From the NCBI GenBank assembly GCA_028698335.1, contig JAQVDP010000009.1:62001-126000 (forward strand): a stretch of DNA of 64,000 nucleotides, read 5' to 3'. This document shows, piece by piece, positions 3,774 to 50,820 of this stretch. A model generated the notes under the pieces. It saw nothing but the letters and a program-made list of their open reading frames with translations. It was not told where the DNA came from and did not search any database. The stretch is from Nevskiales bacterium. GTDB taxonomy: Bacteria; Pseudomonadota; Gammaproteobacteria; Nevskiales; Nevskiaceae. The translations under genes were made by a program, and so were the position numbers. Within the stretch, counting starts at the first letter, position 1; the number at the start of each line of letters is the position of its first letter.

Positions 3774-4040
3774 ACTCGGATCGAGGCGTCTGCGCCCGCG
3801 CGCTTGCGGAGCTGATCGACAGGGATTTCTGCTGTCTGCGCCGGATGGACATCGGTTCCTCTTGTCATCCGAAGCGTGTGACGTGACGGCGCATAGGCCC
3901 GGAGGGATGGAGGCGCTTCCCGCTGTTGTCCGCACCTGATGTCTCAGCCTCGGGTTCAGACAAGGCGTTGCTGATGTTCGGAGGAAGGCGAGGGTTCGCC
4001 CTCCACGTCCGAACCTCGGAAAGGCTCGCCTCGTCATTCC

Positions 4041-4080
4041 TGCCGTCCTGCCGTCCTGCCGTCCTGCCGTCCTGCCGTTC
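4041..4080 (+). repeat. five-unit 8-bp tandem repeat (TGCCGTCC)
   Basis: Four exact TGCCGTCC units and one TGCCGTTC unit lie head to tail in the intergenic region between the two channel genes. Slippage could change the copy number and the spacing to downstream sequences. Confidence 0.9.
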
Positions 4081-4146
4081 TGTCTACGGTGTTGGTGGCG
4101 GTCCTTCGGATTGAGCGAGCAGGAGGGGATGCATCGACTCATCGTA

Positions 4147-39551: not shown

Positions 39552-39835
39552 GGGGGTCCGGGAGCTGTGGGGCGGCGTGCAGTCCCGCAGTGAGAACGGT
39601 CGCGAAGCTGCGCGTATCAGCCGCCATTTTGCCGTGAACGTGGTTTCAGTGCTCAATCCCGGCGCGACGTTGACACAGCGTTTACGGCCGGCTTCCTAAG
39701 GTCTTGGGCATCGGGGGGAGCCGATAGAGCAACTTGGAGGAGATGCGTGGCCGTGGCGACCCCGACGGTCCATAGGCTCGTAATGGGCCGATTGCCTGCG
39801 TGTGCCCGGGCGTCCGTGGCGCGGGCGCTGCCGTG

Positions 39836-41140
39836 ATGGATACGGATCTCCTCGCCTGGCTGATCTACGGCGTTCCGGCGGCGCTGCTGCTGCTGGCGTT
39901 CCGCGCCCATTCCCGCCGTCGCGACCGGCGCAACCTCGATGCGCTCGACAAGGCTGTGGGCGCCGGGATGACCGAACCCGCGTCCCTGCACCCGGTGATC
40001 GATCCGGGCAAGTGCGGGGGCTGCGGGGCCTGCGTGTCCGCCTGCCCCGAAGGCGAGATTCTCGGCATCATCGGCGGCCGTGCGCACCTGATCGCGCCGA
40101 CCAAGTGCATCGGCCACGGCGCCTGTCGCACCGCCTGTCCCTACGACGCGATCACGCTGGTGTTCGGGACCGAAAAGCGCGGTGTCGACATCCCCTTCGT
40201 CAGTCCCGATTTCGAGACCAACGTCCCCGGGCTGTACATCGCCGGCGAGCTGGGTGGGATGGGGCTGATCCGCAACGCCGTCACCCAGGGCGTCCAGGCG
40301 ATGCAGGCGATCAGGAAGTCCCTGGTGCAGCACCCGCATGCACTCGACGTGCTGATCGTCGGCGCCGGGCCGGCCGGCATCGCGGCCGCGCTGTTCGCGA
40401 AGGCATCGGGCCTGCGCTTCCGCCTGATCGAGCAGGACTCGCTGGGCGGAACCGTTGCGCACTTCCCGCGCGGCAAGATCGTGATGACCGCGCCGGTACA
40501 GCTGCCGATCGTCGGCAAGGTCAGCTTTCGCGAGACCACCAAGGAGCGGCTGCTGCAATTCTGGATCGACGCCTGCAACACCGCGGGGCTGCAGATCGAG
40601 GAGGGCATCCGCGCCGAGGCGGTCGTCCCGAATGGGGACGGCTTCACCGTCACGACGTCGGGTGAGACCTTCCAGGCCGCGCGCGTGCTGCTGGCGATCG
40701 GGCGACGGGGCACCCCCCGCAAGCTGGGCGTTGCCGGTGAAGAGCTGCCGAAGGTGGTGTACCGGCTGGTGGACCCCGCGCAGTACGCCGGCCAGCGGGT
40801 GCTGGTCGTCGGCGGCGGCGACGCAGCGCTCGAGGCCGCGGTGGCGGTGGCCGAGCAGCCGGAAACGGAGGTGACGCTGTCGTACCGCAGCGACGCCTTC
40901 GGCCGTGCCAAGGAAAAGAACCGGATGCGTGTGGAGCAGTTGCGCGCCGCAGGCCGGATCGAGGTGCTGCTGCGCTCGCAGCCGCGTGCAATCGAGGTCG
41001 ACGCGGTGCAGCTCGAAACCGACGACGGCCCTCGCACGCTGGGCAACGACGCCGTCATCGTCTGCGCTGGCGGGGTGTTGCCGACGCCGTTTCTGCGGCA
41101 GGCCGGGATCGAGGTGGAGACCAAGCATGGCACGGCCTGA
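39836..41140 (+). CDS. membrane-anchored FAD/NAD(P) oxidoreductase with two [4Fe-4S] motifs
   Basis: A 434-residue protein with an N-terminal helix (LLAWLIYGVPAALLLLAFRA), a ferredoxin domain, and a thioredoxin-reductase-like flavoprotein domain with two dinucleotide motifs (IVGAGPAGIAAALFA near residue 180, VVGGGDAALEAA near residue 323). Cluster 1 is CGGCGACVSACP (residues 60-71). Cluster 2 reads CIGHGACRTACP (residues 91-102), with His94 where the second Cys is usual. It starts a six-gene operon with multiheme cytochromes, so it probably exchanges electrons between NAD(P)H and the b-type cytochrome. The start is ATG 39836; GTG 39833 is adjacent. Confidence 0.85.
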   Translation: MDTDLLAWLIYGVPAALLLLAFRAHSRRRDRRNLDALDKAVGAGMTEPASLHPVIDPGKCGGCGACVSACPEGEILGIIGGRAHLIAPTKCIGHGACRTACPYDAITLVFGTEKRGVDIPFVSPDFETNVPGLYIAGELGGMGLIRNAVTQGVQAMQAIRKSLVQHPHALDVLIVGAGPAGIAAALFAKASGLRFRLIEQDSLGGTVAHFPRGKIVMTAPVQLPIVGKVSFRETTKERLLQFWIDACNTAGLQIEEGIRAEAVVPNGDGFTVTTSGETFQAARVLLAIGRRGTPRKLGVAGEELPKVVYRLVDPAQYAGQRVLVVGGGDAALEAAVAVAEQPETEVTLSYRSDAFGRAKEKNRMRVEQLRAAGRIEVLLRSQPRAIEVDAVQLETDDGPRTLGNDAVIVCAGGVLPTPFLRQAGIEVETKHGTA

Positions 41141-43139
41141 CGGGACGGCGCGGCAGCCGCTGGCTGCTTGCGGGCGCCGCGTCGTACCGCTGCTGCTGCT
41201 GCTGGCGATCCCGGCGACGGCGATGGCTGCGGACGTCGACGCGCAGCTGGAACAGGCCCGGCAGGCGATCGTGCAGCGCGAGCCGCAACGGGCGCTCGCG
41301 ATCTGGACGCCTCTGGCGGAGGCCGGCAATGCCGAGGCGCAGTATCAGCTCGGGGTGCAGCTGGCCACCGGGCGCTGGATCGAGCGCGATCTGGTGGCGG
41401 CGCGGCGCTGGTTGCAGCGCGCCGCCGAGCAGGGCCATGCCCGCGCCCAGTACAACCTCGGGCGCCTGTATGCCGACGGCGACGGCGGACCGGTCGATCC
41501 GGGCGCCGCGCGGCGTTGGTACCAGGCGGCGGCGGAGCAGGGCTACCGGCCGGCGCAGCGGCAGCTTGAGGCCGGCGACGGCGATCGCGTGGAGACACCC
41601 CGGAACCTGATCAGTCTGGTCCGTCGCGGCGACGTCGCGGCGGTCCGGGTGGCGGTGCGGGGCGGTGATGCCGACGTCAACGCCGCTCGCGACGATGCGG
41701 GGCGGACGGCGCTGATGCTCGCGGCGGAAGCCGGCGAGGTGGAGTTGGTGGATGTCCTGCTGGAGGCCGGCGCCGATCCGGCGCCGACCGATCCGCATGG
41801 CAACTCGGCGCTGCTGCTGGCGGTGCGGGGTGGTCACGTCGGCGTGGCGCGGCGCCTGCTCGCGCGCAAGGCGCCCGTCGATCAGGCCGACGACCAAGGC
41901 AACACGCCGCTGCTGCTGGCAGTGCGGCGCCGGGACCGGGACATGGTCGGCGAGCTGTTGCGCCATCACGCCGATCCCAACCACGCCAATCGTGCCGGTG
42001 CGGTGCCGTTGCAGGTGGCGCAGGACGCGGGCGATGAAGCCATTGCCGGACAGCTTCGGGCCGCAGGCGGCCGGGTCGCGCGCGATCGGGTTCTGAGCGC
42101 GGCCCAGCGCGTCGATCCGAATCGGGCGGTGGCGTCGGATGCGGCGACCCGCGGCTGGCCGCCGTTGGTTGCGGCAGCCTGGCGGGGCCAGTCCGACCTG
42201 CTCAGGACACTGCTTGATCGCGGGGCGACGGTTGATGCCACCGATCCGGACGGTCATACCGCACTGACACGGGCGGCGCTGCGCGGTGAGACCGAACTCG
42301 TCGGTCTGCTGCTCGAACGCGGTGCGGATATCGCGCATCGCAGTCGCGACGGCCGCACCGCAGTCCTGCACGCCGCCGCCGCCGGCCATCGGGCGACGCT
42401 GGCGCTGCTCGCGCGCAACGGCGCCGACCTGCGGGTGCGGGCGGCGGACGGCCGCAACGCGCTGGCCCTGGCCGTCGATGGCGGACAGGAGGAGATGGCC
42501 GTCGATCTGCTGCAGCGGGCGCCTGAGCTGGTCGGCGAGCAGTCGACGCTGCTGGCGCGCGCGATCGACGGCGGCATGACGCGACTGGCGTCCGCGGTGT
42601 TGTCCCGTGGAGAGGTCGACCCCCGCATTCTGGGGCCGGCGCTGCCGGTGGCGGTGCGCCATGGCGACGCCGGTCTGACGCGGCAACTGCTCGATGCCGG
42701 CGCGAAATTCAGCGCGGCGGATGGCGCGGAGATGCTGGCGTCGGCGATCGCCCAGCATCGCGTCGATCTGGTCGAACTGCTGATCGGCGCTGGCGTCGAT
42801 CTCGACGGTCGCGGTGGACCACCGGCGCTGGTGCTGGCCGCCGGCGGCGGTGACACCGCCATCGTCCAGCGGTTGCTCGACGCCGGCGTCGATGTCGATG
42901 CGCGGGATGCGCACAACAAGACCGCGCTGATGCTGGCGGCCCAGAACGGGCATCCGGAGGTGGTCGATCTGCTGCTGCGCCACCGGGCCGATCCCAACAT
43001 TCGCAACCGTGACGGCGATACCGCGCTGGATCTGGCGCGCCGCGGCGGTCACGCGACGGTCGTCACCCGCATCGAGCAGACGCGCAGGTCGCTGCTCGAT
43101 GTCTTCAGGGGCGATCGAACCGGCGGAGATGCGCGATGA
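41127..43139 (+). CDS. exported Sel1/ankyrin-repeat protein
   Basis: A 670-residue protein with a signal peptide (VVPLLLLLAIPATAMAA), Sel1-like repeats (AQYQLGVQLATGRWIERDLV, AQYNLGRLYADGDGGPVDPG, near residues 70-150) and then about ten ankyrin-type repeats (DAGRTALMLAAEAGEVELVD, LLLERGADIAHRSRDGRTAV, NKTALMLAAQNGHPEVVDLL). The export signal puts the repeats in the periplasm. It starts 14 bp before the upstream stop and overlaps the cytochrome b gene by 4 bp, so it is a core member of the electron-transfer operon. It may scaffold cytochromes; that is inference. Confidence 0.88.
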   Translation: MARPDGTARQPLAACGRRVVPLLLLLAIPATAMAADVDAQLEQARQAIVQREPQRALAIWTPLAEAGNAEAQYQLGVQLATGRWIERDLVAARRWLQRAAEQGHARAQYNLGRLYADGDGGPVDPGAARRWYQAAAEQGYRPAQRQLEAGDGDRVETPRNLISLVRRGDVAAVRVAVRGGDADVNAARDDAGRTALMLAAEAGEVELVDVLLEAGADPAPTDPHGNSALLLAVRGGHVGVARRLLARKAPVDQADDQGNTPLLLAVRRRDRDMVGELLRHHADPNHANRAGAVPLQVAQDAGDEAIAGQLRAAGGRVARDRVLSAAQRVDPNRAVASDAATRGWPPLVAAAWRGQSDLLRTLLDRGATVDATDPDGHTALTRAALRGETELVGLLLERGADIAHRSRDGRTAVLHAAAAGHRATLALLARNGADLRVRAADGRNALALAVDGGQEEMAVDLLQRAPELVGEQSTLLARAIDGGMTRLASAVLSRGEVDPRILGPALPVAVRHGDAGLTRQLLDAGAKFSAADGAEMLASAIAQHRVDLVELLIGAGVDLDGRGGPPALVLAAGGGDTAIVQRLLDAGVDVDARDAHNKTALMLAAQNGHPEVVDLLLRHRADPNIRNRDGDTALDLARRGGHATVVTRIEQTRRSLLDVFRGDRTGGDAR

Positions 43140-43984
43140 GGGATGTCGTCGAGGTCCAGGGCTGGAGCTACCGTCCCGCGGTGACGCGGGTGACGTCGCT
43201 GCTGTCGTTCGGTTTCGCCGCGGCGCTGCTGTACTGGGGCTGGAGCCATCGTGACCGGTACTACATCAATGCCGAAGACGGGCTCGGCTACATGCTCGGC
43301 ATCGTCGGCGGTTCGCTGATGCTGCTGCTGGGACTGTATCCGCTGCGCAAGCATCTGCGCTGGATGCGCAACTGGGGCGCCGTCCGTCACTGGTTCCGCA
43401 TGCACATGGTGTTCGGCATCGCCGGGCCGGTTGCGATCCTGCTGCACTGCAACTTCAGGACCGGCGCGACCAACAGCAACATCGCGCTGTGGTCGATGCT
43501 CGTGGTCGCGTCGAGCGGACTGATCGGCCGCTATCTGTATTCGCGCATTCACGAGGGGCTTTACGGGCGCCATCTGGAACTCGGCGAGTTGCGCGGGGCG
43601 TGGCTGCAGGCCCGCGGCAAGCTCGATCTGCATGCGCATCACCTCGATGCGATCGGCGCCGCCGTGGAGACCTTCGAGAAGCCGCTGGCGGCGCGGGATG
43701 CCGGAATCGGCGCCAGCCTGTTCGGTCTGCCGGTATCGAGCTGGCGCCGGCACCGCATCGCCCGCCGTGGGCGCCGCATTCTGCGCGGGCTTGCGGATGT
43801 GCCGCACGCGGACCGCGATGCGACCCTCGCCTTGCTGGGGCAGCGTCTGGCCGCGGCCGGCGCGGTGTATCGCTACCACGCCTTCGACCAGCTCTTCAGT
43901 CTCTGGCACCTGCTGCATCTGCCTCTCTACTTCATGTTGATCGTCACCGGAGTCGTGCATGTGCTCGCCGTTCACATGTACTGA
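43136..43984 (+). CDS. membrane b-type cytochrome-like protein
   Basis: A 282-residue inner-membrane protein with four hydrophobic helices (SLLSFGFAAALLYWGW, MLGIVGGSLMLLLGLY, FGIAGPVAILLHCNF with WSMLVVASSGLIGRYLY, and HLPLYFMLIVTGVVHVLAVH). Candidate heme-ligating His pairs lie in WFRMHMVFGIAGPVAILLHC and LWHLLHLPLYFMLIVTGVVH. This fits a cytochrome b561 or ferric-reductase-like quinol/NAD(P)H-linked electron carrier. It overlaps its neighbours on both sides and probably links the cytoplasmic oxidoreductase or the quinone pool to the periplasmic 21-heme cytochrome. Confidence 0.8.
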   Translation: MRDVVEVQGWSYRPAVTRVTSLLSFGFAAALLYWGWSHRDRYYINAEDGLGYMLGIVGGSLMLLLGLYPLRKHLRWMRNWGAVRHWFRMHMVFGIAGPVAILLHCNFRTGATNSNIALWSMLVVASSGLIGRYLYSRIHEGLYGRHLELGELRGAWLQARGKLDLHAHHLDAIGAAVETFEKPLAARDAGIGASLFGLPVSSWRRHRIARRGRRILRGLADVPHADRDATLALLGQRLAAAGAVYRYHAFDQLFSLWHLLHLPLYFMLIVTGVVHVLAVHMY

Positions 43985-45614
43985 CGGACGTCCCCCGCGG
44001 ACGCCGGTGTGGCATCTGATGGCGGTGCTGCTGCTGGGGCTGTGCGCGACGGGTTCGGCCTGGTCGGCGCCGCTGGAGCGTCTGCTGATGCCCGGCAAGC
44101 TGACCCGCGCGCACGCCGATCTCGAAGATGACTGTTCCGAGTGCCATACCTCGTTCAGCCAGACCGCGCAGCAGAAGCTGTGTCGGGACTGTCACGACAA
44201 GGTCGACCGCGACATGCTCGACAAGCGCGGCTTTCATGGCCTGTCGCCGGCGGTGGCGGGCACCGAGTGCACGCAGTGCCACAGCGAGCACAAGGGACGC
44301 GACGCCGACATCGTCGGGCTGGTGCCGACCCTGTTCGATCACGCGCATACCGATTTCGCCCTCGAAGGCGCACACGGCAAGTTGCCGTGCAAGGACTGTC
44401 ATGCCGACGGCAAGCCGATGCGGGACGCGCCCGGCGCCTGTTTCGACTGTCACCGCAAGGACGACGTGCATGAGGGCCAGATGGGCAAGACCTGTCAGGA
44501 CTGTCATGGCACGCAGACCTGGCGCAAGAGCGAGTTCGACCACGACACCACCGACTTTCCGTTGACCGGCGCGCACGGGGAGGTCGCATGCGCCAGCTGC
44601 CACGCCGACCGCCGCTACGAGAACACGCCGACCGACTGCGCGGCCTGCCATGGTCTGCAGGATCGCCACGGCGGACTGTTCGGACAACGCTGCGACGACT
44701 GTCATGTGACCAAGGCCTGGACCAAGGCGCGCTTCGATCACGCCAAGACCGACTTTCCGCTCAAGGGGCGGCATCGCGATGCCGATTGTCACGCCTGCCA
44801 CACCGAGCGCACACGCGATCGCGAGCTGCCGACGGCCTGCGTGGACTGCCACCGCGGCAGCGATTTCCATCAGGGCCGCTTCGGTGGACAGTGCGCCGAC
44901 TGCCATTCCGAGCAGGGATGGGCCACGAGCGGTTTCGATCATGATCGCGACACCACCTTCCCGCTGCGCGGTGCCCATCGCGGTCGCAGCTGTACCAGTT
45001 GCCACAGCGGTGAGCTGCCCAGGCCACGCGGCAAGGGAACAAAGCTGGTGGCGCGTGCCTGTGTCGATTGCCACCGGGTGGACGACGTGCACCGCGGCGC
45101 ACAGGGGGACCGTTGCGACGCCTGTCACCGGCAGGAGGCGTGGCCTGACAGCCTGCGCTTCGATCACGATCTGACCCGCTTCCCGCTGGTCGGCATGCAT
45201 GCGACCGCATCCTGCGCCGAATGCCACATGGACGAGGCCTACCGGGCGACGCCGCAGGCATGCCGGAGCTGTCACGAATCCGACGACGCGCATGACGGCG
45301 CACTCGGTCCGGATTGCGCCGCCTGCCACAACCCCGGCGGCTGGACCCGCTGGGTGTTCGACCACGACCGGCAGACCGACTTTCCGCTCGAGGGCAGCCA
45401 CGCGCAGCTGCACTGCAAGGCCTGCCATCGCGAGCCGGTGGAGCGGATGTCCGCGATCGAGCTCGGCAGCGGCTGCTATGCCTGCCACGCCAACGACGAC
45501 CCGCATCGGGGTGGCTTCGGCCAGAACTGCGAACGCTGCCATCAGGCCAGCGCGTTCAGCGACATCCGCATCAGCAGTCAGGTGCGGGGTGCATCTTCCA
45601 AGGAGGCTCGGTAG
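43959..45614 (+). CDS. 21-heme c-type cytochrome with seven three-heme modules
   Basis: A 551-residue exported multiheme cytochrome c. There are exactly 21 CxxCH motifs, grouped in seven modules of three, six of which begin with the phrase FDHxxTDFPLxGxH. The signal peptide (MAVLLLGLCATGSAWSA) is preceded by a 20-residue extension; the ATG at 43959 has GGAG 6 nt upstream and overlaps the previous gene by 26 bp, while GTG 44007 and ATG 44019 are later options. The protein probably sits in the periplasm and carries electrons between the membrane cytochrome and the larger cytochrome encoded 3 bp downstream. Confidence 0.93.
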   Translation: MCSPFTCTDGRPPRTPVWHLMAVLLLGLCATGSAWSAPLERLLMPGKLTRAHADLEDDCSECHTSFSQTAQQKLCRDCHDKVDRDMLDKRGFHGLSPAVAGTECTQCHSEHKGRDADIVGLVPTLFDHAHTDFALEGAHGKLPCKDCHADGKPMRDAPGACFDCHRKDDVHEGQMGKTCQDCHGTQTWRKSEFDHDTTDFPLTGAHGEVACASCHADRRYENTPTDCAACHGLQDRHGGLFGQRCDDCHVTKAWTKARFDHAKTDFPLKGRHRDADCHACHTERTRDRELPTACVDCHRGSDFHQGRFGGQCADCHSEQGWATSGFDHDRDTTFPLRGAHRGRSCTSCHSGELPRPRGKGTKLVARACVDCHRVDDVHRGAQGDRCDACHRQEAWPDSLRFDHDLTRFPLVGMHATASCAECHMDEAYRATPQACRSCHESDDAHDGALGPDCAACHNPGGWTRWVFDHDRQTDFPLEGSHAQLHCKACHREPVERMSAIELGSGCYACHANDDPHRGGFGQNCERCHQASAFSDIRISSQVRGASSKEAR

Positions 45615-45617
45615 CTC

Positions 45618-48356
45618 ATGCGAAACAATCGAACCGATGGGCAAGGGAGGCGCTTCGGCGCCGGCCGAATCCTGTGCGTTTGCGTGATGCTCCTGATGCA
45701 GCTGGGCGCATCGGCGCATGCCCAGTCGGCGGCGGTACGCAGCGACTTCGACCACGATCAGACCGGCTTCGAACTGCGCGGGCGGCATCGCACCGTGGCC
45801 TGCGAGAGCTGCCATGTCAACGGCATCTTCGTCGGCACCCCGACGCGCTGCGAGGCCTGCCACAACGGCAGCACCGCCCTGGGCAAGCCCGCCGGGCATT
45901 TTCCGACTTCCGACCGCTGCGAGAGCTGCCATAGCGACAACGCCTGGATGCATGTGCCGCGGATGGAGCACATGGACGTCGTCGGCAACTGCGAGAACTG
46001 CCACAACGGCGGCATCGCCACCGGCAAGCCGTTGCATCACATCCAGTCCGGAAACGACTGCGCCAGTTGCCACAGCACCGGCCTGTGGACGGGAGCGCGA
46101 TTCGACCATGCCAATGCCGGCGACAACTGCGCGAGCTGTCACAACGGCGCGACGGCGACCGGCAAGTCGCCCCGGCACATCCTAAGCTCGACCCAGTGCG
46201 CGGCCTGCCACGGCACGCAGCGCTGGCGTCCCGCGAGCCGCGTTGACCATCTCGAGGTCACCGGCACCTGTTCGAGCTGCCACAATGGCAGCGTTGCCTC
46301 CGGCAAGTCGCCGACGCACATCCCGTCGGGCAACGACTGCGAAAGCTGCCACGTCACGCAGACCTGGAGCGGTGCGCGCTTCGATCACAGCAACGTCACC
46401 GGCAATTGCGCGAGCTGCCACAACGGCAGCACGGCCACCGGCAAGCATCCGCGGCACATCGCCAGCGGCAACGACTGCGAAACCTGCCACTCCACCGTGG
46501 CGTGGACGCCGGCCAACTTCAATCACGCCAACGTCAGCGGCGACTGCGCGAGCTGTCACAACGGCACGACCGCGACCGGCAAGAACCCGCAGCACATCGC
46601 CAGCTCCAGCCGCTGCGAGGCCTGCCACAGTCCGGTGGCGTGGTCGCCGGTGACGCGGGTCGATCATGTCGAGGTCACCGGGACCTGTTCGAGCTGCCAC
46701 AACGGCAGCACCGCGACCGGCAAGAACCCGCAGCACATCCAGAGTTCGGCCCGCTGCGAAGCCTGTCATGGCACCACGGCCTGGTCGCCGGTGACGCAGG
46801 TCGATCACAACGACGTCGTCGGCAATTGCTCGAACTGCCACAACGGCAGCATCGCGACCGGCAAGCATCCTGGGCACATCGCCAGCGGCAACGATTGCGA
46901 AACCTGCCATTCGACCGTGGCATGGACACCGGCCAACTTCGATCACGCCAACGTCAGCGGCGACTGCGCGAGCTGCCACAACGGCTCGACCGCGACCGGC
47001 AAGAACCCGCAGCACATCGCCAGCTCCAGCCGCTGCGAGGCCTGCCACTCGACCGTGGCGTGGTCGCCGGTCACGCGGGTCGATCATGTCGAGGTCACCG
47101 GGACCTGCGCGAGCTGTCATAACGGCACGACCGCGACCGGAAAGTCGCCGAGTCACATTCCCAGCGGCAACGACTGCGAGAGCTGCCACACGACGCGGAC
47201 GTGGTCGGATGCGACCTTCGATCACAGCGGCGTGACCACCAGCTGCGTGACCTGCCACAACGGCAGTACCGCGACTGGAAAGTCGCCGACGCACATTCCG
47301 TCGGGCAACGACTGCGAAAGCTGCCACTCGACCAATACCTGGGCCGGTGCGCGCTTCGATCACAGCAACGTTACCGGCAACTGCCAGAGCTGCCACAACG
47401 GCAGCACCGCCACCGGCAAGCCGCCGGGGCACGTGGCGACGACCAGTGACTGCGCCGCCTGCCATTCGACCGTGGCGTGGACGCCGGCCAACTTCGATCA
47501 CGCCAACGTCAGCGGCGACTGCGCGAGCTGTCACAACGGCACGACCGCGACCGGCAAGAACCCGCAGCACATCGCCAGTTCCAGCCGCTGCGAGGCCTGC
47601 CACTCGACCGTGGCCTGGTCGCCGGTGACGCGCGTCGACCACGTCGAGGTCACCGGATCCTGTTCGAGCTGCCACAACGGCAGCACTGCGACCGGCAAGC
47701 CGCCGAATCACATCCCCTCCGGAGACGACTGCGAGAGCTGCCACACGACCAATACCTGGTCGGGTGCGGTGTTCGATCACAGCAGCGTCACCGGCAACTG
47801 CCAGAGCTGTCACAACGGCAGCACCGCCACCGGCAAGCCGCCGGGGCACGTGGCGACGACCAGCGACTGCAACGCCTGCCACTCGACCGTGGCGTGGACG
47901 CCGGCGAGCTTCGATCACGCCAACGTGACCGGCAACTGCCAGAGCTGCCACAACGGCAGCGCGGCCACCGGCAAGCCGCCCGGGCACTTCGTCACGACCG
48001 AGGACTGCGCCGTCTGCCACAACAGCAACGCCTGGACGCCGATCAGCTTCCGTCACAGCTCGCCGAACTACCCCGGCGATCACCGGCGCAATCTGAGCTG
48101 CAATGCCTGTCACACCAGCAACGCCCAGACCGTGCCGTGGCCGAACGCGGCGTATGCGCCCGACTGCGCGGCGTGCCATGCCAACGACTTCCGGGCCGGC
48201 GAGCACACCAAGACCAACTCGCCGCCGATCAACTACACCGCGAGCGAGCTGCGCGACTGCAGCGGGGCCTGCCACGAATACACCGACAGCTCGTTCACGA
48301 CGATCCGGCGCAGCCGCTCGGGCGAGCATCGCGTGTCCGATTCGAGCTGGGACTGA
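45618..48356 (+). CDS. giant repetitive multiheme c-type cytochrome (35 CxxCH plus one CxxxCH)
   Basis: A 912-residue exported cytochrome with a signal peptide ending near GASAHAQS. I count 35 CxxCH motifs and one CxxxCH (CSGACH, near residue 882). After one module like those in the upstream cytochrome, the protein becomes an array of about 32 one-heme units of 23-24 residues in alternating types, CxxCHNGSTATGKxPxHI and CxxCHSTVAWTPxxFDHANV. Each unit has a second His 12-13 residues after the heme-binding His, a likely sixth ligand. The last hemes (CNACH, CAACH, CSGACH) form a different C-terminal domain. Such a regular bis-His heme solenoid suggests a long electron conductor reaching to or beyond the outer membrane. 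Confidence 0.94.
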   Translation: MRNNRTDGQGRRFGAGRILCVCVMLLMQLGASAHAQSAAVRSDFDHDQTGFELRGRHRTVACESCHVNGIFVGTPTRCEACHNGSTALGKPAGHFPTSDRCESCHSDNAWMHVPRMEHMDVVGNCENCHNGGIATGKPLHHIQSGNDCASCHSTGLWTGARFDHANAGDNCASCHNGATATGKSPRHILSSTQCAACHGTQRWRPASRVDHLEVTGTCSSCHNGSVASGKSPTHIPSGNDCESCHVTQTWSGARFDHSNVTGNCASCHNGSTATGKHPRHIASGNDCETCHSTVAWTPANFNHANVSGDCASCHNGTTATGKNPQHIASSSRCEACHSPVAWSPVTRVDHVEVTGTCSSCHNGSTATGKNPQHIQSSARCEACHGTTAWSPVTQVDHNDVVGNCSNCHNGSIATGKHPGHIASGNDCETCHSTVAWTPANFDHANVSGDCASCHNGSTATGKNPQHIASSSRCEACHSTVAWSPVTRVDHVEVTGTCASCHNGTTATGKSPSHIPSGNDCESCHTTRTWSDATFDHSGVTTSCVTCHNGSTATGKSPTHIPSGNDCESCHSTNTWAGARFDHSNVTGNCQSCHNGSTATGKPPGHVATTSDCAACHSTVAWTPANFDHANVSGDCASCHNGTTATGKNPQHIASSSRCEACHSTVAWSPVTRVDHVEVTGSCSSCHNGSTATGKPPNHIPSGDDCESCHTTNTWSGAVFDHSSVTGNCQSCHNGSTATGKPPGHVATTSDCNACHSTVAWTPASFDHANVTGNCQSCHNGSAATGKPPGHFVTTEDCAVCHNSNAWTPISFRHSSPNYPGDHRRNLSCNACHTSNAQTVPWPNAAYAPDCAACHANDFRAGEHTKTNSPPINYTASELRDCSGACHEYTDSSFTTIRRSRSGEHRVSDSSWD

Positions 48357-48360
48357 TCCG

Positions 48361-50820
48361 ATGACGCCAGGAATCGACGCAGGTTCGTCCGGCATCGGCG
48401 CGTTGCGGCGCGGCGGGATCCGGCTGCTGGCGCTCTGCCTGTTGTTTGCGGCGACGCGACTGCTGGCGGCGCCGATCGACGATCGGCTGCTGACGCGGGT
48501 CGACGCCTACCGCAGCGCGGACCGGATCGATGTCGTGATCGGCCTGACCACCGGGCTGCGCTACGTCAGCCACGCGATGGACGCGTCCGGCACCGTGTTG
48601 CAGGTGCGCCTGCGCGACGAGCCGACCGCCAATGGCGATCTCGGCGCGGTCGATGGCGTCAGCAGTCTGCGCGGGCCGACGCTGGCCGATCTGGCGATCG
48701 AGGAGATCAGCAGCGATCTGAGTGGCACGATCCCGTCCGTGATCCTGCGCTTTGGCGCGCCGACGCAAGTGCTCAGGGTCACTGCGAGTCCGGATGACCG
48801 GACGCTGACGGTCTCGCTGCCGGCGCCACGGGCGACGCAGGCGCCGGTTGTTCCTCCGGCCGTTCCGGCGGGAAGCGGGATCTTCGTCGTCAACCTGACA
48901 TCGACCGCCGAGCCGGGCCCGCTCGACTCGAAGCTGGTGGCGCGGATCACTGGCGACGCCGGCGAACCGCTGCGATTGTACGAAGTGCGTTCGAAGATCC
49001 GTGACGTCCTGCGTTACCGGCAGCGGCTCGGCTTTTTTGCCAGTGCCCAGGCGGCGCAGGCGGTGTTGCTGCAGCTCGGCGGCGACTATCCCGGTGCCTG
49101 GGTCGGTGAAGTCACCGACCGCGAGCGCGACGCGGTGCGGGCGGGCGCGGAACACGTCGACCTGGCGCAGATCCGCATCGCGGGTGCGCCCGGCAGCGGC
49201 GTGCCCGATATCACCCTGGAGCGGCTGACCGAGCTGTTCGAACAGGCCCGGACGCTGGCCGCGACGGCAGAGCTGACGCGCGCGGCGACCTTCTATGAAC
49301 GCATCGCCGCCTATCCGGTGACCCCGATGCAGCAGGACGCGGCCGAACTGCTCGGCGTCGTACGCGAGAAGGCAGGGCAGGAAGCGCAGGCCAAGGCGGC
49401 CTACCAGGCCTATCTGCAGCAGTATCCGATGGGGCCCGGCGCGGATCGCGTCAGGCAGCGGCTGGCGGCGCTGCTGATGCCGCCGGAGCAGGAGCGCGCG
49501 CGGATCGAAGGGCCTCGGCCACGCACCGCCGAGTCGCAGTGGGATGTGTTCGGCAGCGTCTATCAGTTCTATCGCTACGATCAGTTCCAGGTCAACGACG
49601 AAGCGACGCAGACGACGCGCTCACTGCTCAGTACCGATCTCGACGCCAATGCCCGCCGGCGTTCCGACACCGTCGATCTGCGTTTCCGCGTCACCGGCAG
49701 CTACGACCATGATTTCCTCGACAGTGCCGAAAGCGAGTTCCGCGCGTCGATGGCCTACGTGGACCTGGCGACACGCGACCAGCATCACAGCGCGCGGCTC
49801 GGGCGGCAGACCCGCACCTCCGGCGGCGCGCTGGGCCGCTTCGACGGGCTGTACTACGCCTACCGGCTCGGCGAGCGCTACCGGGCCAACGTCATCGGCG
49901 GCACGCCGGTGTACTCGACGGCGGACGGTTTCGACAGCACCCGCGTGTTCTACGGCGGTGGGCTTGAGATCGGCCCGCTGGCCCGGCACTGGAACATGCA
50001 CCTGTACGGCGTCAACCAGACGGTGGACGGCATGGTCGACCGGCGCGCGGTGGGCACCGAGCTGCGCTACTTCAACGATGGCGTGTCGCTGTTCGGACTG
50101 GCCGATTACGACGTCTATTTCAGTGAGCCGAACATCCTCTATCTGATCGGCAGCGGCACCGTCGGCAAGACCACGACCTTCAGCGTCATCGCCGACCGTC
50201 GCCACAGTCCGCTGTTGAGCCTGAGCAATGCCTTGATCGGGCAGACCGTGACGTCGATCAGCGAGCTCAGCCAGACCTACAGCGAATCCGAACTCAAGCA
50301 GATCGCGCTCGACCGCAGTCCGATCAGCACGAGCTATACGGTGTCCCTGTCGCAGGGCATCAACTCGCGGTTCCGGATCTCGGGGGACGTGACCTCTTCG
50401 AAGATCGCGTCGATGCCGGCATCGGGTGGCATCGACGCCATCGACGGCAGCGGCCCGGACTGGTTCTACAACCTGCAGCTGATCGGGACCGATCTGTTCG
50501 CGACGAGCGACCTGGCGATCTTCGGCGTCAGGGTGACCGATACCACCCGCTACAGCGGCCTTGCCGGAACGCTGAACTATCGGGTCCGGGCAGTCGGCAA
50601 GCTCGATCTGAATCCACGCCTGCGCGTCGACCGGCGCCGTACCGACGACGGCCGGACCCAGTGGATCTATGCGCCCGGAGTGCGGGCGGTCTGGCACGCG
50701 CGGCGCCGATGGACGCTGGAATTCGAGCTGGCGGCCGAGCTGTCGGACCAGCAGTTCGCCGACACCACCGACAAGACCAGGCTCTACTTCGCCTATGCGG
50801 GGTACCGCTACGATTTCTGA
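48361..50820 (+). CDS. outer-membrane beta-barrel with AMIN/SPOR-like and TPR-like N-terminal part
   Basis: An 819-residue exported protein. After the signal peptide (LLALCLLFAATRLLAAP) come an AMIN-like segment (DVVIGLTTGLRYVSHAMDAS), a SPOR-like segment (LGFFASAQAAQAVLLQLGGD) and a short TPR-like helical stretch (AAELLGVVREKAGQEAQAKA). The rest (about residues 390-819) is strand-rich with alternating aromatics and ends in YAGYRYDF, with the C-terminal Phe of outer-membrane barrels. It is the last gene of the cytochrome operon, 4 bp after the giant cytochrome, and may act as the porin or anchor through which the cytochrome passes. It does not resemble MtrB by eye. Confidence 0.85.
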   Translation: MTPGIDAGSSGIGALRRGGIRLLALCLLFAATRLLAAPIDDRLLTRVDAYRSADRIDVVIGLTTGLRYVSHAMDASGTVLQVRLRDEPTANGDLGAVDGVSSLRGPTLADLAIEEISSDLSGTIPSVILRFGAPTQVLRVTASPDDRTLTVSLPAPRATQAPVVPPAVPAGSGIFVVNLTSTAEPGPLDSKLVARITGDAGEPLRLYEVRSKIRDVLRYRQRLGFFASAQAAQAVLLQLGGDYPGAWVGEVTDRERDAVRAGAEHVDLAQIRIAGAPGSGVPDITLERLTELFEQARTLAATAELTRAATFYERIAAYPVTPMQQDAAELLGVVREKAGQEAQAKAAYQAYLQQYPMGPGADRVRQRLAALLMPPEQERARIEGPRPRTAESQWDVFGSVYQFYRYDQFQVNDEATQTTRSLLSTDLDANARRRSDTVDLRFRVTGSYDHDFLDSAESEFRASMAYVDLATRDQHHSARLGRQTRTSGGALGRFDGLYYAYRLGERYRANVIGGTPVYSTADGFDSTRVFYGGGLEIGPLARHWNMHLYGVNQTVDGMVDRRAVGTELRYFNDGVSLFGLADYDVYFSEPNILYLIGSGTVGKTTTFSVIADRRHSPLLSLSNALIGQTVTSISELSQTYSESELKQIALDRSPISTSYTVSLSQGINSRFRISGDVTSSKIASMPASGGIDAIDGSGPDWFYNLQLIGTDLFATSDLAIFGVRVTDTTRYSGLAGTLNYRVRAVGKLDLNPRLRVDRRRTDDGRTQWIYAPGVRAVWHARRRWTLEFELAAELSDQQFADTTDKTRLYFAYAGYRYDF

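Follow-up and report, generated by a model that had tools for sequence, protein, structure and literature searches.

We describe here a predicted multiheme cytochrome c encoded at positions 45618-48356 of a 64,000-nucleotide stretch of DNA from a Nevskiales bacterium (contig JAQVDP010000009.1, positions 62,001 to 126,000), hereafter called the window. The product of the window gene is probably the large cytochrome, predicted to lie outside the cell, of a PCC3-type electron conduit (PCC3 being a putative porin-cytochrome cluster type described by He et al. 2017, PMC5566968) and a modular rod whose length can evolve in pairs of heme-binding repeats. This reading is based on the regular alternation of two repeat types between conserved protein ends, on the odd number of heme motifs in related arrays, on length differences that are exact multiples of one pair, and on gene order.

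Heme motifs and their register

The gene and its parts, all on the + strand, are as follows.

45618..48356, + strand: repetitive multiheme cytochrome c of 912 amino acids (aa), 36 predicted hemes, Pfam Cytochrome_C7 in 13 stretches
45618..45725, + strand: signal-peptide-like N-terminus, ending ...ASAHAQ and without a lipobox, recognized by eye
45726..45848, + strand: N-terminal cap with heme 1 and a 16-residue gap before heme 2, from motif spacing
45849..48098, + strand: array of 16 A+B pairs, hemes 2-33, from repeat typing
48099..48353, + strand: C-terminal cap with hemes 34-35 and CxxxCH (heme 36), ending GEHRVSDSSWD, from motif spacing

As the initial annotation had counted, the open reading frame (ORF) contains 35 CxxCH motifs and one CxxxCH (residue 881). 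The protein has 74 cysteines and 78 histidines, amounts to 25.3 aa per heme, and is recognized in Pfam by Cytochrome_C7 together with related c-type families. Neighbouring CxxCH motifs are spaced by 23 or 24 residues in 31 of 34 intervals, and hemes 2-33 are without exception (32 of 32) accompanied by a second histidine at +16 or +17 from the first cysteine, i.e. x11 or x12 after CxxCH. Both the strict register and the second histidine in each repeat, which had been noticed before, are thus borne out. When the whole protein was shuffled 2000 times, CxxCH motifs appeared 0.5 times on average (maximum 4) and 23/24 intervals at most once; in 500 shuffles restricted to residues between the motifs, second-histidine matches reached a mean of 3.8 and a maximum of 11, compared with the 32 observed. 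The two controls rule out a chance origin of register and second histidine.

Within the register, two repeat types alternate: A (resembling CxSCHNGxxATGKxxxHIxT) and B (resembling CxxCHxTxxWxPxxFDHxxVTG, 23 or 24 residues). Hemes 1 and 34-36 lie outside it and form the ends of the protein, with C-terminal gaps of 31 and 22 residues followed by CxxxCH; these ends recur in relatives.

The description of the 138-bp double units as close to identical in DNA was overstated. Pairwise identity among 15 such units averages 73% (range 62-94%), five of 105 pairs reach at least 90%, and the longest exact repeat measures 82 bp. Tandem Repeats Finder reports periods of 138, 279 and 417 bp. The closest double units sit three or four units apart, which looks like joint copying of multi-unit blocks.

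Two-heme rule in related arrays

Relatives were collected in two batches. The first consists of 66 loci from a scan of species genomes with peptide patterns derived from the window protein. For the second, 369 genomes of the class were subjected to a similarity search; 43 matched at 1e-20, the window's own genome included, and 40 regions were retrieved from 35 of the 42 other matching genomes. Matches in G011, G018, G086, G098, G275, G280 and G312 were left out, as were further matches in retrieved genomes (e.g. G043:C92, G096:C1, G121:C17 and G188:C20). We call an array regular when its ORF is complete and at least 90% of its core intervals are regular, less regular when the proportion is 30-90%, and capped when its first gap measures 16 residues and it ends in a CX3CH or CX4CH tail, which makes the caps true by definition within the set of 50 capped arrays. 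Open-ended ORFs, ORFs with X derived from N and extra copies of identical proteins were excluded from the parity count, together with L001-L014, which either duplicate or adjoin the window gene or come from G006, a genome encoding the same protein as L015; near-identical proteins across the two batches were retained. The arrays are not independent of one another, as clustering at 60% identity reduces the 42 cytochromes encoded next to them (the partners, see below) to 26 groups.

Of the 52 complete regular arrays (12 to 69 motifs), 50 have an odd number of CxxCH, and so do all 50 of those that carry both caps (13-69 motifs, window included). As to the two even-numbered arrays, L039 is a piece apparently truncated at a run of N; L098 apparently lacks one heme of the C-terminal cap. 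Odd counts in capped regular arrays indicate that length changes by whole A+B pairs. The arrays follow the formula 1 + 2n + 2 CxxCH and one expanded motif, n being 16 in the window and ranging from 5 to 33 pairs, so that the count in relatives, set beforehand as a test, shows a repeat number that is not fixed. Because the relatives were found by patterns from, or similarity to, the window protein, the odd-count rule covers regular A/B arrays and not all PCC3 cytochromes; less regular arrays have odd counts in six of 14 cases.

The 16-residue first gap was found in 51 of the 52 complete regular arrays, the exception being the L039 piece, and an expanded motif follows the last CxxCH in all 52 (among the 50 capped arrays, CX3CH in 37 and CX4CH in 13). 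Taking the regular arrays together, open-ended ones included, the second histidine is present in 1738 of 1739 repeats of 23 or 24 residues. Where neighbouring repeats could both be typed, A and B alternate in 1426 of 1430 cases; 122 of the 1739 repeats could not be assigned a type. The A repeats of the window share on average 55% identity with A repeats of other species (at most four sampled per array) and 29% with the B repeats of the same protein, which marks the A+B pair as ancient. The initial annotation, which saw single-heme repeats, overlooked both the two-heme pair as the unit and the PCC3-type gene order described below.

A different spacing was seen in L107 and L112, where intervals of about 24 and about 19 residues alternate; both arrays are capped and have odd counts (21 and 23).

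Length differences between relatives

We further compared arrays of relatives whose partner cytochromes are 65-98% identical. All differences in array length are in frame and made up of whole pairs, exactly one, two or four at a time. L085 and L106, with partners 97.8% identical, are separated by one insertion or deletion (indel) of 279 bp (23 and 19 CxxCH), L026 and L027 by indels of 282 and 141 bp (41 and 47), L018 and L019 by 558 and 279 bp (49 and 61), and the window and L015 by 138 and 138 bp (35 and 31). In L026 and L050, two 282-bp indels compensate each other and both arrays have 41 CxxCH. No indel within the array was present in the comparisons of L019 with L020 and of L034 with L035. 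Other gaps are situated at the start, where they reflect start-codon choice, or at the end; one additional 3-bp gap in the window/L015 array is expected, given that B repeats of 23 and 24 residues exist.

Indels of 138, 141, 279, 282 and 558 bp support the earlier suggestion that copy number evolves by recombination, which is the presumable cause of these events. Parity and pair-sized indels rule out single hemes as the units by which the arrays evolve. The notion of a wire built to length is supported as far as variable length between conserved ends is concerned, but not with respect to selection on length.

It is quite possible, though in our estimate somewhat short of an even chance, that the two-heme rule is merely mutational, A and B DNA being too different to recombine with each other, and carries no structural meaning. 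In the window, A and B repeats are 63.5% identical in DNA, near the background of 59.4% obtained with shuffled B, compared with 75% among A and 71% among B repeats; unequal recombination among like repeats alone would then yield even steps. This explanation does not account for the alternation that is kept in nearly all typed neighbours, across species, or for the difference between A and B, which is the same in other species. Both call for selection on the pair, and we therefore argue that the pair is a structural unit too. Mutational bias and selection on the pair can act together. Since A and B differ and like recombines with like, a rod would gain or lose two hemes, or multiples thereof, per step; two-heme steps between conserved caps would let its reach evolve quickly while the ends and the partner remain constant.

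Short and long arrays also occur side by side. One locus in a single-contig genome (L083:6657-13680) contains arrays of 23 and 69 CxxCH; neighbouring arrays of unequal length are found in L094 (23 and 47) and L096 (23, 33 and at least 46) as well.

Gene neighbourhood

The genes surrounding the 36-heme protein are listed below.

39800..41140, + strand: iron-sulfur (Fe-S) and FAD/NAD(P)-type oxidoreductase, Pfam Fer4 and Pyr_redox families, hydrophobic N-terminal stretch seen by eye
40905..43139, + strand: Sel1 and ankyrin repeat protein, overlapping its neighbours
43136..43984, + strand: membrane protein, predicted di-heme b protein, 282 aa, two WX3HX13H (86, 257) and SGLIG (127)
43959..45614, + strand: 21-heme cytochrome partner, three-heme modules with spacing of about 16/18/32, 21 CxxCH
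48361..50820, + strand: putative outer-membrane barrel (porin) protein, 819 aa, ends in F

The order of b-heme-like inner-membrane protein, 21-heme cytochrome, 36-heme protein and barrel-like protein is the PCC3 layout. PCC3 clusters comprise an inner-membrane protein, a periplasmic cytochrome (median 21 hemes), an extracellular cytochrome (median 34, up to 85 hemes) and a porin (PMC5566968). Their inner-membrane protein is defined by a length of about 300 aa, two WX3HX13H motifs and one SGXXG (PMC5566968), and the 282-aa protein carries these motifs. The product of 43959-45614 agrees in heme count with the cytochrome of about 21 hemes, its periplasmic location being predicted, and the 36-motif protein lies within the 22-39 aa per heme of the heme-rich, repetitive multiheme cytochrome (MHC). 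The window cluster and PCC3 are thus alike in these three components, and the putative barrel protein may be the fourth.

Partners were sought among complete cytochromes of 17-27 hemes. Their heme count is 21 in 38 of 42 loci, 24 in two and 18 in two, always a multiple of three. The partner is near-fixed and built in threes, the rod is variable and built in twos; the two proteins follow different building rules. Homologs of the putative barrel protein occur in 39 of 46 other loci holding a complete capped array. The 819-aa protein itself was assigned to no Pfam family, and its CpoB/BamD-like stretches are weak and far below cut-off.

Extracellular placement of the heme-rich PCC3 cytochrome is a prediction by He et al. 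(PMC5566968), and the rod might instead be periplasmic and bridge the membranes, with the 21-heme protein inside or outside the barrel. Its signal-peptide-like N-terminus without a lipobox would suit such a location, for which it also speaks that the published extracellular one is a prediction only. That prediction nevertheless points outward (PMC5566968), and a length free to reach 70 hemes would be easier to reconcile with a space open at one end than with a gap of fixed width; the constant 21-heme partner would match the latter. We consider a periplasmic rod improbable.

The oxidoreductase resembles YpdA and thioredoxin reductases, with scores below cut-offs. Homologs sharing 45% identity or more, and no further than 4.3 kb from the inner-membrane protein, were found in 56 of the 76 loci that contain the latter, 44 of the 56 on the opposite strand from it; loci titled Bacteroidetes, Saprospiraceae and Flavobacteriales are among them. 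The main text of He et al. contains neither 'ferredoxin' nor 'FAD' and mentions Fe-S under PCC4 only (PMC5566968). By analogy with ferric-reductase-type systems, electrons may enter or leave at the NAD(P)H level. The true start of the Sel1/ankyrin ORF is perhaps near 41148, judging by its 663-aa homolog in L015; ankyrin proteins (29-54% identity) accompany the inner-membrane protein in 27 of its 76 loci, in 25 of them within 3 kb of it.

CcmF was found in the genome, which makes heme attachment possible. RuBisCO is encoded there, too. In the genus it is present in four of 11 genomes, namely in both of those with the rod and in two of the nine without it, a distribution that decides nothing on electron direction or a link to carbon fixation.

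Cousin clusters were noticed in five loci (L056, L058, L060, L071 and L072; Bacteroidota and one other bacterium), in which a 20-23-heme cytochrome lies beside a long one with 34-46 CxxCH and a three-heme period of about 15/25/32 residues.

Sequence matches and structure prediction

The best sequence match in the PDB was chain 6r2q_A (E 3.5e-5), labelled cystathionine beta-synthase in the database, which we take to be MtrA. The entry 6R2Q was deposited as the Mtr complex (PMC7198977). MtrA of MtrCAB (6R2Q) is thus similar to the window protein by sequence, having 10 hemes where the window protein has 36. The DmsE/MtrA decaheme family (TIGR03508) matches the protein in stretches, with a total score of 124.3 below the cut-off of 192.2, and the OmcA/MtrC family (TIGR03507) scores 48.5 against a cut-off of 209.3; both assignments were rejected.

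OmcS, OmcE and OmcZ, likewise multiheme chains proposed as extracellular wires, are short polymerising subunits, whereas the window protein is one long chain of regular repeats. It might be imagined that it too polymerises end to end into a nanowire of this kind, with its caps serving as polymer contacts. A variable middle flanked by two conserved ends would agree with such a subunit, and so would the 44 of 50 capped arrays without a lipobox. However, the sequence matched four PDB chains at E <= 1, no filament cytochrome among them, and with as many as 70 hemes in one covalent array polymerisation would be less needed, so that we find this explanation highly improbable.

A model was computed for a fragment of 285 residues (12 hemes' worth) from an alignment of 130 of 133 chosen fragments, which has 616 columns for 285 residues and is partly out of register. 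The model contains a short helical turn at every CxxCH. A second helical turn occurs at the distal histidine in all six B repeats and in none of the six A repeats, and this alternating local structure, as modelled, fits a two-heme structural period. In multiheme chains, parallel and T-shaped heme contacts alternate; by analogy, the A+B pair may be linked to this alternation.

Discussion

We propose that the window gene most likely encodes an extracellular electron-transfer rod of evolvable length. In this scheme, a cytoplasmic pool would be linked via the Fe-S/flavin protein and/or quinones to the inner-membrane di-heme b protein, and the latter would exchange electrons with the 21-heme cytochrome spanning the periplasm. 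The periplasmic cytochrome would connect through the barrel to the 36-heme rod, in which 16 A+B heme pairs would lie between two conserved caps, the C-terminal one with an expanded last motif. Heme loading, bis-His ligation, stacking, surface location and conduction of the rod are inferred.

Several observations weigh against this proposal. A loose lipobox-like motif occurs in six of the 50 complete capped arrays, the window not among them, and this rarity leaves surface anchoring unaccounted for. L047, one of the less regular arrays, has both caps but an irregular middle, and its count of 48 is even. Repeat numbers are possibly wrong in many relatives, which are draft metagenome bins. The gene is present in just one of 10 other genomes of the window's genus; the protein there is identical to that of L015 (Sinimarinibacterium sp. 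CAU 1509). In Gallionellaceae, PCC3 cytochromes have 10-18 and 26-35 hemes, expanded motifs included, and thus counts of both parities (PMC10734462); the odd-count rule may not hold there. Both PCC3 clusters of Sideroxydans ES-1 are down on Fe(II) (PMC8788666), which speaks against a role as Fe(II) oxidase, and the literature covered contains no experimental test of PCC3 function. As for structure, the fragment model was built without hemes (predicted local distance difference test, pLDDT, 75.7; predicted template modelling score, pTM, 0.43), the full-length AlphaFold2 model is unusable (pLDDT 46.2, pTM 0.22), and searches of the PDB with the fragment model by Foldseek and VIA gave no match, a miss that means little because such heme proteins have scant secondary structure.

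Repeats, a low residue-per-heme ratio and the wire hypothesis were already noted for PCC3 cytochromes (PMC5566968), those of Gallionellaceae, with 10-35 hemes, were modelled as long and mostly linear (PMC10734462), and variable heme numbers are on record (PMC5566968, PMC10734462). In strain CL21, both PCC3 clusters are expressed above the mean (PMC12442390). Storage of electrons was also raised as a possibility for PCC3 (PMC10734462): the hemes would act as a capacitor, and heme number would set capacity instead of reach. The low 25.3 aa per heme suits such a store, and variation in length would tune its capacity just as well; conserved ends and a two-heme register maintained across species are left unexplained by it, however, and we think it unlikely.

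Returning to the extracellular rod, a bolder version can be formulated, which we advance tentatively and hold to be rather unlikely as a whole. PCC3 rods would constitute a natural, genetically length-coded series of wires, rigid, lengthened or shortened by two hemes at a time (one parallel and one T-shaped contact), with docking ends that stay fixed and 14 to 70 hemes in all. If linear and spaced as in MtrCAB, at 9.3 A per heme, they would measure about 13 to 65 nm. Their length would be tuned to how far away the electron partner is, and the membrane-bound Fe-S flavoprotein would couple them directly to cytoplasmic NAD(P)H.

The cluster type itself is already described; new here is a simple, falsifiable rule for changes in wire length. 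The A/B pair, the odd count, the CX3CH/CX4CH caps, pair-sized indels and the flavoprotein neighbour are unstated in the parts of the PCC3 papers drawn upon here. More generally, the literature covered (supplements, most subscription journals and preprints fall outside it) makes no mention of pair-wise length steps, the capped architecture or the flavoprotein neighbour. PCC3 is widespread in bacteria, and a series of rods differing pair by pair, with the ends conserved and the partner nearly constant, would be natural material for relating electron transfer to wire length and for inquiring into the selection behind that length. The flavoprotein neighbour, in turn, offers a testable electron entry point, one missing from the PCC3 model of He et al., which builds on quinones.

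Very large MHCs are known, with 113 hemes in Methanoperedenaceae (PMC7082337) and 112 in a metagenome-assembled genome of Paludibaculum (PMC11495043). They share with the present arrays the many hemes per chain; PCC3 context and a two-heme register are unstated in the parts of those reports considered. A 4071-aa ORF in one of our loci (L113:5022-17237, G223:C17), adjoining a 24-heme cytochrome, contains 133 CxxCH and a terminal CX3CH, more motifs than the hemes given in the cited parts of both reports (PMC7082337, PMC11495043). Its heme spacing is irregular (27/28/33/51) and recurs blockwise.

Elsewhere in the window, at 4038-4082, an octamer repeat (TCCTGCCG, 5.6 copies, 97% matches) lies inside a long ORF on the minus strand whose coding value is doubtful.

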